Notes under the pieces: model-generated
Databases searched by the model: none
What the model was told of the DNA's origin: nothing
What the model saw: only the letters and a program-made list of their open reading frames with translations
From: Candidatus Firestoneibacteriota bacterium
Lineage (GTDB): Bacteria > Oederibacteriota > D2-FULL-39-29
NCBI GenBank assembly: GCA_903928075.1
Contig: CAIYPD010000042.1
Coordinates: 1 to 42,983, forward strand
Direction of reading: 5' to 3'
DNA: 42,983 bases
Shown: positions 40 to 40,124 of the stretch, in pieces
How positions within the stretch are numbered: the first letter of the stretch is position 1
How the letters are laid out: every line of letters begins with the position of its first letter
Position numbers and translations under genes: made by a program

Positions 40-136
40 TAAGGTTTTTAATGTTTATAAAGTAACAGCATTAATTTAATAGTATACGAGGTTTTACCTT
101 ACAAACCTTATTAACGTTACAAACTTTAGAAACTTA
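40..136. repeat. 9-bp tandem repeat array with facing inverted array
   Basis: Three plus-oriented 9-mers (taaggtttt, taatgttta, taaagtaac) occupy 40-66. About five units in reverse orientation occupy 92-136, reading taaggtaaa, taaggtttg, taacgttaa, taaagtttg and taagtttc on the minus strand. The facing arrays could fold into an imperfect hairpin. The first bases of the window (aaggatattta, 1-11) match the end of the core that follows this array type at 18916-18935, so the window probably opens inside a further copy. Confidence 0.6.
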
Positions 137-8422: not shown

Positions 8423-9450
8423 TGGACAGAAAAATAATATTTAAAAACGGTATCTGGATTTTACTGGTAGCGGCCGGGCTCGTGGGCGGCTATTTTATGG
8501 CTTCTAGTTATATTCCGGGCAATACTGCCGTAAACGAAGTAAAAAGCGATGGGGCCGGAAATCCTGCCTTGCCGGAAAACTTTAAATATGATATGGCAAA
8601 ACTTAAACAGTATGACCCAAGGCAGTTGCTCTATGGGGAAGAAACAAAAATTAAAACCGGGCTTAAGGAACCTTTCGGGCTTACTGTTAACAAAAAAGAC
8701 GGCCGCGTACTGGTGGTTTCAACAGAAGGTATGCTGGTTTGTGATGGCGCGATTGCCGGAAAAGTAGCCGCTCTGCCGGTCAGACTTGAAGGGCCGGGCA
8801 GTGTTTCTTTTGGTTTTGCCGGGGAGTTGTTATTAGCCGGCAGGGACAGGGTAAATATTGTTTCCGGGACTATTATCGGGTTCGGAAAAAAAGGTAAAGG
8901 GGTGGGTGAGTTTAAATATATAACCTCCGTCAAAGCAAACGCTAAGTATATTTTTACGGCGGATGCCGGGAACAGAAGAGTATGCAAATTTGATCTTAAA
9001 GGAAAGTACCTGGGGCAAATAGGCAGGAAGGATAAGGCTGCCGGCAAGAATTTTGTTATCCCGAGCCCGCATATGGATATGGATTTTGACAGTAAAGGAA
9101 ACCTTTGGGTGGCAAATGCCGGGCTGCTTCAGCTGGAAAAGTATTCTCCGGAGGGAGTATTTGTTTCTTCCTGGGGAAAACACGGGATTAATATTGATGA
9201 ATTTATTGGCTGCTGTAATCCTGTTAATTTTGTTATAGACGGCGGGGATAATTTTATTACAGCGGAAAAAGGCGTACTCAGGATTAAAAAATACGATAAA
9301 ACCGGGAAGTTTCTCGGGGTGGTTGCACCGCCCGGGACCTTTAATGAAAAAAACACTAGTATTCCCCTGGCTGTGGATTCAAAAAACAGGGTTTACGCGC
9401 TGGATACGATAGAGAAAACGGTCAGAGTGTTTTCGGAAAAGGGATATTAA
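8422..9450 (+). CDS. membrane-anchored NHL-repeat beta-propeller protein
   Basis: A 342-residue protein with an N-terminal membrane segment (about 10-30) and then NHL-type six-bladed propeller repeats: FTADAGNRRVCKFDLKG, LWVANAGLLQLEKYSPEG and FITAEKGVLRIKKYDKTG, each with the hydrophobic-strand then K-x-D/S-x-x-G pattern. NHL propellers bind ligands or proteins and some have lactonase or lyase activity; no catalytic residues can be assigned here. The ATG overlaps the upstream stop by one base (TGATG), which fixes the start. A TTG in frame 21 bases upstream is less likely. It probably sits outside the inner membrane beside the two PQQ-like propellers. The stop codon is the first part of the repeat array that follows. 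Confidence 0.78.
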   Translation: MDRKIIFKNGIWILLVAAGLVGGYFMASSYIPGNTAVNEVKSDGAGNPALPENFKYDMAKLKQYDPRQLLYGEETKIKTGLKEPFGLTVNKKDGRVLVVSTEGMLVCDGAIAGKVAALPVRLEGPGSVSFGFAGELLLAGRDRVNIVSGTIIGFGKKGKGVGEFKYITSVKANAKYIFTADAGNRRVCKFDLKGKYLGQIGRKDKAAGKNFVIPSPHMDMDFDSKGNLWVANAGLLQLEKYSPEGVFVSSWGKHGINIDEFIGCCNPVNFVIDGGDNFITAEKGVLRIKKYDKTGKFLGVVAPPGTFNEKNTSIPLAVDSKNRVYALDTIEKTVRVFSEKGY

Positions 9451-9511
9451 GTTTTTAAAGTTTGTAAAGTTTTTAAGGTCCATAAGGTCTAAAATCGTTG
9501 AAATATATTTA
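9447..9511 (+). repeat. 9-bp tandem repeat array plus conserved core (copy 2)
   Basis: Units ttaagtttt, taaagtttg, taaagtttt, taaggtcca and taaggtcta run into the core aaatcgttgaaatatattta. The array begins in the stop codon of the NHL gene. It is closely related to copies at 18871 and 30173. Confidence 0.75.
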
Positions 9512-9670
9512 ATTTTTTCAAGTATCTGTGTCATCTGTTTTTTATCTGTGAAATCAGCTGCGCTTTTAGCAGCATAAGGTCTAAAATCGCGGAAGGATGT
9601 TTATTGGTTTTGGTTTTTGTATCTGTGTCATCTGTTTTGTATCTGGGCCATCAGCTGCGCTTTTAGCAGC
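9483..9670 (+). repeat. tandem duplication of a roughly 95-bp unit with hairpins
   Basis: Each unit contains the 9-mer core (taaggtctaaaatcg at 9483 and 9575), a segment beginning gtatctgtgtcatctg (9522 and 9619, 97 bp apart), and a terminal hairpin GCTGC-gctttta-GCAGC (9557-9573 and 9654-9670). A second, bulged hairpin follows at 9669-9688. The 271-bp gap between the NHL gene and the next propeller gene is almost all repeat and shows no ORF of its own. These structures could attenuate or stabilise the transcript between the two parts of the cluster. Confidence 0.65.
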
Positions 9671-9721
9671 GGAAGCTCAAAGCTCCGCAAGCAGTAAAAT
9701 CGTTTTTGATAGGAGGAAGAT

Positions 9722-17274: not shown

Positions 17275-18873
17275 ATGCCTGAATTAAAAATCAACGGAAA
17301 GACATATAGCTTTGAGGAAGGCGCCACCCTGCTAGAAACAGCGGCGGCGCACGGCATTATCATACCTACCCTGTGTTATCTTAAGGAACTGGGGGCTTTA
17401 ACCTCCTGTTTTATTTGTGTTGTTGAAATAGAAGGCCGCGCGGCGCTTGTTCCTGCCTGTTCGGCCAAAGCGGCTGCCGGTATGAGCGTGAGTACTGATT
17501 CGGAAAGGGTAAAGCAAGCCAGAAAAAGAGCTCTGGAACTATTACTTTCTGATCACACGGGGGACTGTCTCGGACCCTGCCAGACCGGTTGCCCTGCGCA
17601 TATAAATATTCCGAAATTTATTAGAGAACTTAAACATGGCGATAATAGGGCAGCAATAAGGACCATTAAGGAGAATGTTGCCCTGCCCGCTGTTTTAGGG
17701 CGGATTTGCCCGGAAGTATGTGAAAAGGTTTGTAGAAGGAAAGAGAAAGACGCCCCGGTGTCAATCTGCCATTTGAAGAGATTTGCCGCCGATTTTGATA
17801 TGAGTTCTGCCAAGCCGTTCCTGCCCGGGCTGGCAGGTGCAACAGGAAAGAAAATTTCTATTATCGGGGCCGGACCTGCGGGACTCACGGCAGCCTATTA
17901 TTTAAGACAGCGGGGCCATGAGGTGGTTATTTATGACAAGAATGAAAAACCCGGCGGGACGCTAAGATATGAGATAGCAAAAACAAGATTACCGGACGAA
18001 GTCCTGGATGAAGAAATAGCCCTTATTGCAAAACTGGGTGTAAAATTCGAACAAAATAAAAGCCTGGGCGCGGAAATTTTCCTTAAAGAGCTGGTTAAAA
18101 ATTATGACGCAGTGCTTATTGCGGCCGGCAGTAAAAAGGACGATCTGAAGCAACTGGAAAAAGAAGGACTGCATATCGGAGAAAATGGTTTAGTTACGGA
18201 TAAAGAATCCTATGAAACTAATGTTACCGGAGTGTTTGCGGGGCCCAAGTCGACCCTGGCCGTCCGGGCTTCCGAGATAGGCCGGCAGGCTGCGAAGGCG
18301 ATAGATAAATATTTAAGCGGTTTAAAACCAAAAATAGAGAAACGCCCATTCTCCGTGAAGATGGGTAAATTGAGTAAAGAAGAGCTGGAGGTTTTTTTAA
18401 AGGATTCTTCGGACTTTGCCAGATTCCTGCCCGATATGGTTGATATGGTTTTTGTAGAGGAAAATCCCGGAGAGGAGAGAGTTCCCTTTTTTGCGGGCGA
18501 AGTAATAGAGGAGTCCGGAAGATGCCTGCGTTGTGATTGCCGTAAAGAAGCTTCCTGTTTCTTAAAAAAATATGCTATAGAATATAATGCCGGTCCGGAG
18601 GCCCTTAAGGGTGAAAAACGGGGGTTTACAAGGGACATTAAAAGAATCGGGGTTGTTTATGAGTCCGGTAAATGTATAATGTGCGGAATTTGCATTAAAA
18701 TCTGCGAGAAATACAAAGAAAAACACGGAATGACCTATATCGGAAGGGGTTTTAATGTGAGGGTAAGTCTGCCCTTTGGCAGAAAATTTGAGAAGGTGCT
18801 TGAAGAGGCCGCTGAAGAATGCGCAAAATCCTGCCCAACGGGAGCGATAAGTAAGATAAACTATAGTCTATAA
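17275..18873 (+). CDS. [2Fe-2S]/FAD/[4Fe-4S] oxidoreductase, NuoG/HydA N-terminus joined to a GltD-like flavin domain
   Basis: A 532-residue protein. Residues 1-80 are a [2Fe-2S] domain (Cys34, Cys45, Cys48, Cys62), as at the start of NuoG and HydA. Residues 90-160 match the N-terminal domain of glutamate synthase small subunits (DCLGPCQTGCPAHINIP, then GRICPEVCEKVCRR). Residues 193-345 carry the FAD motif GAGPAG but run straight from VLIAAG to GVFAGPK, missing the NAD(P)H-binding subdomain of about 120-150 residues. A cysteine-rich stretch (417-428) follows, then a ferredoxin domain with C467-x2-C-x2-C-x3-C477 and C516/C520-P. There the second CxxCxxC set is gone, leaving probably one cluster. 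It starts 1 base after the flavoprotein stop, so the two likely form one complex. It has no H-cluster and no molybdenum domain. Confidence 0.78.
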   Translation: MPELKINGKTYSFEEGATLLETAAAHGIIIPTLCYLKELGALTSCFICVVEIEGRAALVPACSAKAAAGMSVSTDSERVKQARKRALELLLSDHTGDCLGPCQTGCPAHINIPKFIRELKHGDNRAAIRTIKENVALPAVLGRICPEVCEKVCRRKEKDAPVSICHLKRFAADFDMSSAKPFLPGLAGATGKKISIIGAGPAGLTAAYYLRQRGHEVVIYDKNEKPGGTLRYEIAKTRLPDEVLDEEIALIAKLGVKFEQNKSLGAEIFLKELVKNYDAVLIAAGSKKDDLKQLEKEGLHIGENGLVTDKESYETNVTGVFAGPKSTLAVRASEIGRQAAKAIDKYLSGLKPKIEKRPFSVKMGKLSKEELEVFLKDSSDFARFLPDMVDMVFVEENPGEERVPFFAGEVIEESGRCLRCDCRKEASCFLKKYAIEYNAGPEALKGEKRGFTRDIKRIGVVYESGKCIMCGICIKICEKYKEKHGMTYIGRGFNVRVSLPFGRKFEKVLEEAAEECAKSCPTGAISKINYSL

Positions 18874-18935
18874 GGTTTATAAGGTTTGTAATGTTTGTAA
18901 TGTCCATAAGGTCTAAAATCGTTGAAGGATATTTA
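18871..18935 (+). repeat. 9-bp tandem repeat array plus conserved core (copy 3)
   Basis: Units taaggttta, taaggtttg, taatgtttg, taatgtcca and taaggtcta are followed by the core aaatcgttgaaggatattta. The first three bases are the stop codon of the preceding gene. The 281-bp gap to the glycosyltransferase holds this array, an AT-rich middle, and a facing inverted array at 19071-19110. Confidence 0.8.
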
Positions 18936-19070
18936 TGTTCAAGGAAAATATGAAAAGCTATATGAAAGGTGAAAAATTGTTTAAATGGGCTTTGGAGAAC
19001 GTTGGGGCGGGTATTGGATGTGATCAAATATTTTGTGGAAATTAATTATATTTAGGGGGTATTTTACTTT

Positions 19071-19110
19071 TATGGACTTTTACAGACATTTACGAACCTT
19101 TATAGACCGG
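19071..19110 (-). repeat. inverted 10-bp tandem repeat array
   Basis: Four consecutive 10-mers (tatggacttt, tacagacatt, tacgaacctt, tatagaccgg) are present. Read on the minus strand they become TAAAGGTTCG, TAAATGTCTG and TAAAAGTCCA, which are the 9-mers of the plus-strand arrays with one extra A. With the array at 18871 they bracket about 130 bp, as at 40-136. Confidence 0.65.
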
Positions 19111-19154: not shown

Positions 19155-20456
19155 ATGAAGCTTAGCTTCATTGTAGCCGGTGCAGGTGAGATGTATTGCG
19201 GAGCCTGTATGCATGATATGCTTCTGGCTCAAGGGCTTATTAATAAAGGCCATGAGGTTAAACTCTATCCGCTCTACACTCCCGTGAAGGTTGATTTTGC
19301 ACTGCCGCAAAAGGAAAAAAAGATTTATTTCTCCGGACTAAACGCCTTTCTGGAGCAAAACTTTAAAGCTTTCAGAAAAAGAAACGGCGGGGTCATGGAT
19401 AAACTTCTCGAATCCCCCTCGCTTATTAAACTTATGATGTCGTTTTCCATAGATATTGAGCCGGCAAAACTCGGCGCTATGACCGTCTCGGTCCTTAAAG
19501 GTGAGGAAGGTTATCAGGAAAGAGAAGTTCTGCGCCTTGTCGAGGCGATGAAAAAGGATGGCAAGCCGGATATAGCCGTAATTACAAATTCAATGCTTAT
19601 CGGTATTGCGCCCGTTATAGGAAGGGAACTTGGCGCTCAAGTTTACTGTCAGTTGATGGGGGAAGAAGATTTTATTAAAAACCTGCCGGTTCCCTATGCC
19701 GAGGAGGCTCACACTCTGCTCCGGCGGCATGCGAAATATATAAAAAAATTCCTCGCGCCGTCGGCGGCCTATGCCGAGGAGATGGCCTATTTTCTCGCGG
19801 TGGAAAAAGAGAGAGTGCAGACTATAACTTTCGGGATAAATTCCGGCTATTACAGCCCCGGACAGGAGCGGACAAAAGAGCCGTTTAAAATAGGCTTTCT
19901 TTCAAGGATTATGCCGGCCAAAGGCTTTGATTTGCTGGTTGAAGCTTTTATTCTCCTTTCAAAAAAATACGGCAGAGAGGCGGAATTATGGGTGGCGGGC
20001 TTGACGCTGGGCGCCAGGCATAAGCAATATTTTTTGGCGTGTAAGAAGCGGCTTAAAGAGGAGGGTTTGCTCGAAAAGTTTCACTATGCCGGAGTGCCGG
20101 GACTTAAAGAAAAGGCAGCCTTCTTAAAAGAATTAAGCGTGTTTTCCGTTCCCAGCCGTTTTCCAGAATCCCGCGGTTTTGCGGCGCTTGAAGCTATGGC
20201 TTCCGGAATACCGGTCGTTCTGCCGGATAACGGGATATACCGGGATTTTGTGAACAAAGGTAATGCCGGGCTGCTTGTCAAACCCAATGACCCTCAAACT
20301 CTGGCGGAAGGCATAATTAAAATAATGGATGATGCCAGAAAAGCCGATGAATACGGTAAAAACGCCGCGGCTTGTGCGGTAAAAGATTATTCACAAGAAA
20401 AGATGGTGGAAGAGACCGTGCAATTTTACGAGAGAGAGATTCTGGGCTTGAACTAG
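19155..20456 (+). CDS. GT4-type glycosyltransferase
   Basis: A 433-residue GT-B-fold glycosyltransferase. The N-terminal domain opens with MKLSFIVAGAGEMYCGACMHD and contains the donor-fold loop ALLxxGHEV-like segment QGLINKGHEVKLYPLY. The C-terminal domain has FKIGFLSRIMPAKGFDLLVEAF and the E-x7-E nucleotide-sugar motif FPESRGFAALEAMASGIPVV, with the usual VPSR before it. GT4 enzymes transfer sugars from nucleotide-sugar donors to glycans, lipids or sucrose-like acceptors; the acceptor cannot be inferred. It is probably cytosolic or peripheral to the membrane. GGAGGAGG lies 7-8 bases upstream of the ATG. It stands alone, convergent with pilT. The stop lies inside the small palindrome TAGTAC-aaa-GTACTA (20454-20468). 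Confidence 0.85.
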   Translation: MKLSFIVAGAGEMYCGACMHDMLLAQGLINKGHEVKLYPLYTPVKVDFALPQKEKKIYFSGLNAFLEQNFKAFRKRNGGVMDKLLESPSLIKLMMSFSIDIEPAKLGAMTVSVLKGEEGYQEREVLRLVEAMKKDGKPDIAVITNSMLIGIAPVIGRELGAQVYCQLMGEEDFIKNLPVPYAEEAHTLLRRHAKYIKKFLAPSAAYAEEMAYFLAVEKERVQTITFGINSGYYSPGQERTKEPFKIGFLSRIMPAKGFDLLVEAFILLSKKYGREAELWVAGLTLGARHKQYFLACKKRLKEEGLLEKFHYAGVPGLKEKAAFLKELSVFSVPSRFPESRGFAALEAMASGIPVVLPDNGIYRDFVNKGNAGLLVKPNDPQTLAEGIIKIMDDARKADEYGKNAAACAVKDYSQEKMVEETVQFYEREILGLN

Positions 20457-28743: not shown

Positions 28744-30165
28744 ATGTTGAAAATCTATAATACTCTAACTCAAAAAAAAGAAGATTTCACCCCTCTTACA
28801 CCCGGGGAAGTAAAGATTTACAATTGCGGGCCGACGGTCTATGGCTTCTTTCATATAGGTAATGCCAGGAATTTTATAGTCGTTGATATTATACGGCGTT
28901 ATCTGGCCTTTAAGGGCTTTAAAGTTACCCTGGTCCAGAATATAACCGATGTGGACGATAAGATAATAAAGCGGGCCCGGGAGGAGAATACGACTCCTCA
29001 GGTAATTTCTGAAACCTATACAAAAGCCTATTTTGAAGACCTGGCGGCGCTTTCCGTTAAAAAACCCGAAGTAAATCCCAAAGCGACCGAGCATATAAAG
29101 GAAATGCAGGAGCTTATAAGCCTGCTTATTGAAAAAGAAGCTGCTTACGCTTCCGAGGGCGATGTCTATCTGGATGTCGGAAAAGTTAAGGATTACGGCA
29201 AGCTTTCCCACAAAAATATAGAAGAGCTGCAGGCCGGCGCCAGAATTGAAGTTAATGAAAATAAACACAGTCCCCTTGATTTTGTGCTCTGGAAGAAAGA
29301 TAAAAATGAAGGCATTTTCTGGGATTCCCCCTGGGGGCCCGGCCGGCCCGGCTGGCATACGGAATGCTGCGTAATGAGCGGGAAGTATTTACAGCATCCT
29401 TTTGATATTCATTCCGGCGGGATTGACCTGGTATTTCCGCATCATGAAAATGAAATAGCCCAGGTAGAAACCGCGACCGGGAAAAAACTTGCCAACTACT
29501 GGGTGCACAACGGCCATTTGAATATTCACGGGGAAAAAATGAGTAAATCCCTGAATAACTTTCTGCTGGTTCGGGATATTCTGAAACAGTACAGTGCCAA
29601 TGTGCTCAGGTTTTTTCTTTTATCCGCGCATTACCGGAGTCCGCTGGATTTTACCGAAGAGAATGTTGCGAATGCCGTTAACGGTTTCACGGAACTTGTA
29701 AGCACCCTATACCGTATTGCCGGTATTTTAGAAAAGCCGCTGACCGCCGGCGGAGCTTCAGATAGTAACCTTAAGGAAAAAGAAAAGAAAATGGAAGAGA
29801 AGTTCAGTGCTTCCATGGATGATGATTTTAATACGGCGGCCGCTCTTGCTTCGCTCTTTGAATACGCCAATGATATTAAAAAAACAATAAAGAACAAAGA
29901 TTGGAGTTTGAACAGTGAGAATAGGGGCACACTGCAAACGGCGGGAGAGAAGATAACTGCCTTATTTTTGGTTCTGGGCTTTGAGATAAATGTTGAAAAG
30001 GTCCCCGCGGAAATTAATGCTCTGGCGTCGGAACGGGAAAAAACAAGAATTACTAAGGATTGGGTAAAGTCCGATGAATTAAGAAAACTGTTGGAAGAAA
30101 AAGGCTGGGCAGTGGAAGATACGCCGAAAGGGCAGTTGTTGATAAAGCAAAAATATAGTTTATAA
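28744..30165 (+). CDS. cysS: cysteine--tRNA ligase
   Basis: A 473-residue class I aminoacyl-tRNA synthetase that charges tRNA-Cys. Motifs are MLKIYNTLTQKKEDF at the start (typical of CysRS), the zinc/first cysteine CGPTVYG (Cys28), the HIGH-like HIGN at 37-40, the zinc ligands GWHTECC and FPHHENE, and KMSKS in HGEKMSKSLNN. Length matches the family. I place the start at MLKIYN rather than the ATG nine bases earlier because the family begins there and the promoter ends just before. The last codons (YSL) and the stop are part of a repeat array shared with the gene ending at 18873. Cytoplasmic. Confidence 0.95.
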   Translation: MLKIYNTLTQKKEDFTPLTPGEVKIYNCGPTVYGFFHIGNARNFIVVDIIRRYLAFKGFKVTLVQNITDVDDKIIKRAREENTTPQVISETYTKAYFEDLAALSVKKPEVNPKATEHIKEMQELISLLIEKEAAYASEGDVYLDVGKVKDYGKLSHKNIEELQAGARIEVNENKHSPLDFVLWKKDKNEGIFWDSPWGPGRPGWHTECCVMSGKYLQHPFDIHSGGIDLVFPHHENEIAQVETATGKKLANYWVHNGHLNIHGEKMSKSLNNFLLVRDILKQYSANVLRFFLLSAHYRSPLDFTEENVANAVNGFTELVSTLYRIAGILEKPLTAGGASDSNLKEKEKKMEEKFSASMDDDFNTAAALASLFEYANDIKKTIKNKDWSLNSENRGTLQTAGEKITALFLVLGFEINVEKVPAEINALASEREKTRITKDWVKSDELRKLLEEKGWAVEDTPKGQLLIKQKYSL

Positions 30166-30172
30166 AGTGATA

Positions 30173-30240
30173 TAAGGTTTGTAAGGTTTTTAATGTTTAT
30201 AAAGTTCGTAAGGTCTAAAATCGTTGAAGTATATTATTTA
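30173..30240 (+). repeat. 9-bp tandem repeat array plus conserved core (copy 4)
   Basis: Units taaggtttg, taaggtttt, taatgttta, taaagttcg and taaggtcta are followed by the core aaatcgttgaagtatattattta. It begins 8 bases after the cysS stop. The 249-bp gap to rlmB holds this array and an 8-mer array at 30349, and otherwise no gene. Confidence 0.8.
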
Positions 30241-39823: not shown

Positions 39824-39877
39824 TGCTTGCTTGAGGCCCCTCATTAAAGGCCGGCTCAACGGGCCAGGTTGAAAAAA

Positions 39878-39910
39878 GGGACAGTCCCTGAGGGACTGTC
39901 CCTCAGGGAC
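39878..39910. repeat. GGGACAGTCCC double palindrome between terminators
   Basis: GGGACAGTCCC, tga, GGGACTGTCCC and then TCAGGGAC: each 11-mer is itself nearly self-complementary and the two arms pair with each other. It sits between two terminators in a 442-bp gene-free gap (39707-40148). The rest of the gap holds the 8-mer array at 40085 and AT-rich DNA with no ORF. Confidence 0.6.
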
Positions 39911-39940
39911 ACTTGCTAAGCAGTTTTAAAAAAAGAGCAA

Positions 39941-39978: not shown

Positions 39979-40084
39979 ACTTATTTTTCAGGCTATTTAT
40001 GGTATATTTGTATCAGAGTCTATCTGCGGTGTGGTTCCGCCTAATGGCGGATAAATCTCTATGGCAAGGCGTTTAACTTTTTAT

Positions 40085-40124
40085 CTTGTAATCTTGTCGT
40101 CTTGTACTCTTGTAAACTGTTATT
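40085..40124 (+). repeat. 8-bp tandem units upstream of tyrA
   Basis: cttgtaat, cttgtcgt, cttgtact, cttgtaaa and ctgttatt follow one another at an exact 8-bp period, ending 24 bases before the tyrA start codon. Confidence 0.65.

Follow-up and report, generated by a model that had tools for sequence, protein, structure and literature searches.

The arrays of tandem 9-bp words that lie dispersed between the genes of a Candidatus Firestoneibacteriota bacterium each constitute one arm of an inverted pair, and in its full-length form the element so delimited consists of an array, a core, a gene of the four-helix-bundle family PF05635 and an inverted array. Judged by the homology of their arms and core, the copies in the window, by which we mean the whole stretch of 42,983 nucleotides analysed here (contig C42 of the host draft genome G000, 2.72 Mb), are probably gene-less derivatives of this PF05635 element; we also consider it rather likely that the elements in general are MITE-like, non-autonomous derivatives of elements carrying four-helix-bundle genes. 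The preliminary description of this DNA had correctly recognised a family with a conserved core scattered between genes, but it had missed both the inverted-pair structure and the PF05635 gene in the longer copies.

The abundance of the family is evident from the exact 15-mer core TAAGGTCTAAAATCG, of which the host genome has 47 copies, 25 on the forward and 22 on the reverse strand, the reversed pattern having none, while a 19-base core with up to 3 mismatches gives 85 copies in 0.72 Mb of stretches, against none in the control. A profile scan for copy number, as had been proposed, was conducted with R1, a sequence-only model of array and core made from 20 copies, all of them gene-less. It revealed, counted as lower bounds, at least 121 matches in G000, 96 in G001 (which belongs to the same genus as the host), 70 in G002 and 74 in G004; in the second family of the host's order there are at least 86-108 in each of four genomes, and in G003, the ninth genome of the order, at least 4. 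Array and core therewith form an order-specific family of elements, present at about 70-120 copies each in eight of the nine genomes. The R1 search of 36 genomes from other orders of the phylum returned no match, and a pattern scan of a contig collection matched solely the MAG Candidatus Firestonebacteria AM-2014_bin-3360, in two of its contigs.

Within the window, direct reading located the copies at 9447-9511, 18871-18935 and 30173-30240, plus a core-only copy at 9575 and partial copies in 1-136, and all of those listed earlier are present in the sequence. Matches to the 21-base core number four in the window, against none in 100 shuffles; for an array pattern of three units the figures are 12 and none. 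The unit is not 9 bp long in every array, some having units of 10 bp (TAAAGGTCYR). At the contig start, the 3' half of module C, a separate structured repeat, occupies 1-42 on the forward strand, truncated by the contig start and ending ...GACATAGCGAGATAA at the array. There follows the forward arm of an element which the contig start also truncates (40-63, + strand, a 9-bp array; R1 E=1.2e-4), and its partner is the inverted right arm at 92-136 (- strand; R1 E=4e-10; TRF row 96-133), upstream of ORF 161-820. The left arm and core at 9447-9511 (+; R1 E=1.2e-18) overlap the stop codon, 9448-9450, of ORF 8401/8422-9450, and beyond them lies a D repeat (ATCTGTGTCATCTG...ATCTGTG) with the 3' hairpin GCTGC-GCTTTTA-GCAGC (9521-9574, +; alignment A3). 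The core-only copy at 9574-9602 (+; R1 E=4.8e-5) lacks an array because its core comes after this other repeat and its hairpin; a second D repeat with the identical hairpin occupies 9620-9671 (+; read from the sequence, TRF row 9615-9652). At 18862-18935 a left arm and core (+; R1 E=3.4e-20) provide the stop codon of ORF 17275-18873, which is the TAA of one array unit, and the same intergenic space contains an inverted right arm of 10-bp units at 19062-19107 (-), upstream of ORF 19155-20456. The arms at 92-136 and 19062-19107 are thus opposite-strand arrays that partner forward ones. The last left arm and core lie at 30154-30240 (+; R1 E=1.1e-14 and 3.3e-4), and the array supplies the upstream ORF with a new stop codon at 30163-30165.

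The inverted-pair structure is most apparent in the orientation of the arms. Chains of array and core mostly begin 0 to ~46 nt from the stop codon of a gene on the same strand, a gene-end preference that the preliminary description had asked about, whereas arrays 5' of genes have the opposite reading direction and start most commonly ~50 nt before the start codon. Because of these opposite orientations an arm generally runs outward from whichever gene edge lies closest to it; this holds for 74 of 84 cases in G000, 49 of 53 in G001, 14 of 15 in G002 and all 12 in the second family, figures that derive from simple-script gene calls on draft genomes, in ~0.72 Mb of stretches picked around copies and hence enriched for elements. 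Strand bias, which had equally been raised as a question, is present as well, and the orientation is that expected of a unit made of an inverted pair that faces inward across the spacer. The inner gap of facing pairs is at most 111 bp in 31 of 43, and intact elements mostly measure ~105-190 bp in total, with a peak at 146-158 bp, following the layout of a 9-bp array, a core (27 bp and non-repetitive in the part shared by copies), a short centre and an inverted 9-bp array. The best-defined examples, L061, L132 and L116, are orthologous in three genomes, such loci among relatives not being independent, and they consist of four 9-bp units, GTC, TAAAATCNTTGAAGGATATT, a variable centre, CCACCTTTAAAAAAGAC and four inverted 9-bp units. 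Two observations count against our main reading: many intergenic spaces have a single recognisable arm, and the match between arms is only slightly better within elements than between them (p 0.03-0.06), for which reason we do not argue firmly for a conserved hairpin or for strong selection on a transcript hairpin.

The scan of genes between facing arrays provided one informative case, G000:C76:43285-43790, in which an ORF of 122 residues (L074:5327-5695) lies between inverted 10-bp arrays; its product matches PF05635 (E=2.3e-34) and TIGR02436, four helix bundle protein (E=2.5e-32), and has a structural relative in PDB entry 2GSC. The elements yielded no transposase, and an aminotransferase, a His phosphatase, MocA-type oxidoreductases and a methyltransferase situated between facing arrays were dismissed as ordinary neighbours. 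The family search found PF05635 in eight of the nine genomes of the order. At the PF05635 gene of L142, R1 matches the upstream flank across array and core (E=1.4e-16) and, in opposite-strand orientation, the downstream one (E=4.7e-11); it likewise matches the flanks of such genes at L145, L146, L155 and L152, and in L142 and L146 the core is placed between the left arm and the gene just as in gene-less copies. Since a model made from gene-less copies recognises these flanks, the window elements either derive from a PF05635-carrying element or share their ends with it. Two further PF05635 genes, L165 (G000:C7) and L153 (G005:C91), have arms of the ATTACTAATT type and tRNA-like surroundings, apparently between tRNA genes, the tRNA identity having been assigned by eye. 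A search of a phage collection found no relative of the PF05635 protein.

Comparison of orthologous sites suggests that the units have moved. The site at 30165 is empty in G002, G003 and G004, in which the flanking genes overlap by ATGA; the array inserted there gives the upstream gene extra codons besides its new stop, and a similar ~11-base stretch, AAAGSAAAAAYA, flanks the insertion as a possible target duplication, of which this is the one candidate. In G001 the ortholog of this upstream gene (G001:C34:7261-7815) has, where the insertion would lie, a C-terminal extra of ~100 residues. The site at 18871 corresponds in G003 to an array-free spacer of 37 bp, and in G001 and G002 to the inverted arm only, before the orthologous gene. 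Among the conserved adjacent gene pairs of G000 and G001, eight spacers have arrays in both genomes, five only in G000 and three only in G001; one orthologous spacer measures 270 bp in G000 versus 34 bp in G001. Some array positions are common to different genera, and the pfkA-like locus of G003 has only a decayed array remnant. Such presence and absence argue for mobility; against it counts that neither a transposition event nor its footprint was observed directly.

In mechanistic terms, small mobile elements would end in the arrays, which would form their inverted arms and consist of degenerate 9- or 10-bp words in tandem; most copies, including those in the window, lack the gene and are presumably non-autonomous. 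We infer that the repeated words or the arm hairpin would be recognised by the four-helix-bundle protein, or by a nuclease acting as its partner, and that insertion would thereby be promoted; it counts against this reading that no catalytic site is known in PF05635. The confinement of the elements to spacers at gene edges is probably due to the survival of only those insertions that leave the ORF and the ribosome-binding region intact.

How else could such arrays have come to lie between genes? That they are chance AT-rich, low-complexity DNA, or slippage products arising site by site, might be thought from their degenerate, AT-rich units, but near-zero counts in shuffled and reversed controls already refute this idea, and the common non-repetitive core and the sharp taxonomic boundary leave it virtually no credence. 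Slippage enters again in the view that the arrays are independent, either slippage-born or older MITEs, and that PF05635 and GxxExxY genes enter them as passengers: the drift of the arrays looks like slippage, most arrays have no gene, and two unrelated gene families occupy them. We regard this as unlikely, given that each gene locus has a word of its own on both sides, that L142 and L146 keep their core exactly where gene-less copies have it, and that genes of this kind are again associated with arrays, of other words, in distant phyla.

Arrays that start near the stop codon and run on in the direction of the gene could also be selected gene-boundary signals such as terminators, insulators or mRNA 3' elements, all the more as some arrays of the second family lie between the stop codon and a terminator-like hairpin and some positions are shared by genera. 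Such a signal is nevertheless quite improbable: the arms 5' of genes are oriented the opposite way, orthologous spacers differ in having arrays at all, G003 has just 4 profile matches (a lower bound), and full copies enclose a gene between their arms, as unrelated words do elsewhere. It is still harder to believe that RAYT/IS200-type Y1 transposases move the elements in the fashion of REP/BIME, even if the host genome has four Y1_Tnp genes while G003, almost devoid of elements, has no RAYT genes. All four genes have REP-like palindromes of other kinds at their sides (GTGACAGTCAC, GGGACAGTCCC, GGCGCTGTCCC and GTCGCTGTCCC), array and core adjoin none of them, and the elements are armed with arrays, unlike short REP hairpins; we have thus rejected RAYT as mobiliser, and the search for an associated transposase that had been recommended came to nothing. 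Nor can G003, with its 0 PF05635 genes and at least 4 elements, be used as a natural knock-out of PF05635, the correlation being confounded because this genome lacks PF13366 as well as RAYT genes.

The proposed derivation of the elements from those carrying four-helix-bundle genes has parallels beyond the order. Elsewhere in the phylum, PF05635 genes have other inverted words, for instance GAACATAGAACATAG, AATTGCTAATTACTAATT, GTTTTAAGTTCTAAG and GTTACAGGTTACAGG, each locus having its own word on both flanks. When 230 nt on each side of the gene were scored, inverted repeats in the flanks of 47 PF05635 loci exceeded those of 931 control genes (Mann-Whitney p=5e-13), with 13 of the 47 at or above the 99th percentile of controls, and the downstream flank of the same locus matched far better than permuted flanks (trace 982 versus a maximum of 678 in 20,000 permutations); several PF05635 genes of 'FENLxVYQKA' type, without clear inverted flanks, count against our reading. 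Outside the phylum, with homologues mostly annotated by others as four helix bundle or S23 protein, seven of eight plasmid loci have inverted words (Nostoc, Stanieria, Anabaena, Pseudanabaena, Calothrix, Riemerella), including GTAGGGAGTAGGGAG and GGTGACAGGTGACAGG on the cyanobacterial and Riemerella plasmids. On plasmids of Anabaena sp. 90 (L230:901-1269) and Pseudanabaena galeata (L231:904-1263), the four-helix-bundle gene lies with inverted word flanks between cas6 and cas4, which in Anabaena is the setting of a type I-D CRISPR operon; the flanking words differ between the two, and these genes may be insertions rather than cas genes.

A comparable arrangement surrounds the genes for GxxExxY proteins (PF13366, TIGR04256), 18 out of 28 loci reaching or exceeding the 99th percentile for inverted word flanks (p=7e-13). 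In the host, the GxxExxY gene at L061:4428-4802 (G000:C96:56427-56802) stands between inverted word arrays, as do others at loci L195-L224 in other genomes, with words such as CCACAGAGTACACAGAG, GATTCCACTGATTGCAAA and CACAGATGAATGGGATGAAC. In the host genome the words of the D repeat recur as inverted flanks around a GxxExxY gene, which places the D repeat at 9521-9671 in the GxxExxY word family; all of its 34 sites are intergenic.

Several additional repeats share the same spacers. Module C is a structured repeat of 59-62 nt, GCAAAGCTTTTCTCG...ATGTCAAC-NNNN-GTTGACATAGCGAGA, inserted exactly at the TAA of arrays and once in tandem, with examples at 1-42 of the window, L050:5682-5750 and L043:11377-11507; in an alignment of 23 host-genome copies and 2 from relatives, 5 of 13 predicted pairs have compensatory changes. 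Other modules, CCCGCCGATCTCTTTGGAGGGTG and CTTCAAAAATGTAAATATTTTGATATTTGAGCATCCGCC, are nested in D repeats and joined to the D hairpin and the core, in intergenic position (L057:8068-8170, L070:8927-9000 in reverse-strand coordinates, and similar sites). Palindromes of the AGGGACAGTCCCTC type, resembling those beside the host's RAYT genes, are found at 39877-39911 of the window and in L056, L066, L059 and L069, and tandem words ATCTTGTA, of the CTTGTATCTTGT family, occupy 40083-40115; across the fetched stretches this family has 8 sites between genes.

With respect to known systems, the elements are neither REP nor CRISPR, as the preliminary description had stated, and moreover they belong to no Rfam family, the Rfam search having given no match above gathering score except tRNA. 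They resemble REP/BIME in being intergenic, palindromic and numerous, while the host's RAYT genes, with other palindromes, are unlinked to them. Like MITEs and foldback elements they are short, non-coding, terminally inverted, dispersed in many copies and related to longer gene-bearing forms, and short tandem repeats likewise make up the arms of eukaryotic foldback elements; in contrast to MITEs, the long copies here have no transposase. The ends are shared with a PF05635-bearing element, and for a target-site duplication there is a single candidate. Degenerate short tandem words between genes are known also as the STRR heptanucleotide repeats of cyanobacteria. STRR have been described as non-coding, unlike the gene-bearing family studied here, and the S23 genes of cyanobacterial plasmids are flanked by inverted words of STRR-like type.

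The elements also resemble the intervening sequences (IVS) of bacterial 23S rRNA genes. These share with our elements the terminal inverted repeats forming a stem and a patchy distribution, and gene-less versions of them exist, as in the present family. In Coxiella and Leptospira they carry an S23/IVP ORF (PMC4990558), PF05635 being in both systems encoded by a single small ORF, which here is enclosed by terminal inverted repeats in the full copies only. Our elements differ in lying outside 23S rRNA, between ordinary protein-coding or tRNA-like genes, which is why we have not assigned them to classical rRNA IVS, which RNase III excises, and in having arms of 9-10-bp word arrays and ~100 gene-less copies per genome. 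PF05635 also resembles Avd (PMC10053308) of diversity-generating retroelements, but reverse transcriptase (RVT_1) has no match in G000 and is absent from eight of the nine genomes of the order, which led us to reject a resident reverse-transcriptase partner.

In evolutionary terms, the S23-bearing IVS have been described as selfish elements of unclear origin, discovered more than 25 years before their review, with unclear function and mobility that was only hypothesised (PMC4990558). In the literature, with subscription journals little covered, we found no earlier link of S23/IVP or PF05635 to intergenic word repeats. The balance is about even on whether there is an unrecognised bacterial class of elements in which one small gene, for either S23/IVP or the PD-(D/E)XK-like GxxExxY protein, lies between inverted arms of tandem 7-11-bp words, gene-less copies of which make up much of the intergenic 'word repeat' DNA, including the STRR type, with rRNA IVS as one outpost. 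The link between element and gene suggests a source for a common junk repeat of bacteria, and with hundreds of copies, recognisable ends, gene-bearing and gene-less forms and empty sites, the mobility hypothesis for S23 becomes directly testable. If true, this scheme would provide a common origin for the degenerate tandem words between the genes of many uncultured bacteria and of cyanobacteria, and it would hint at what the proteins of TIGR02436 and TIGR04256, both widespread but uncharacterised families, do.
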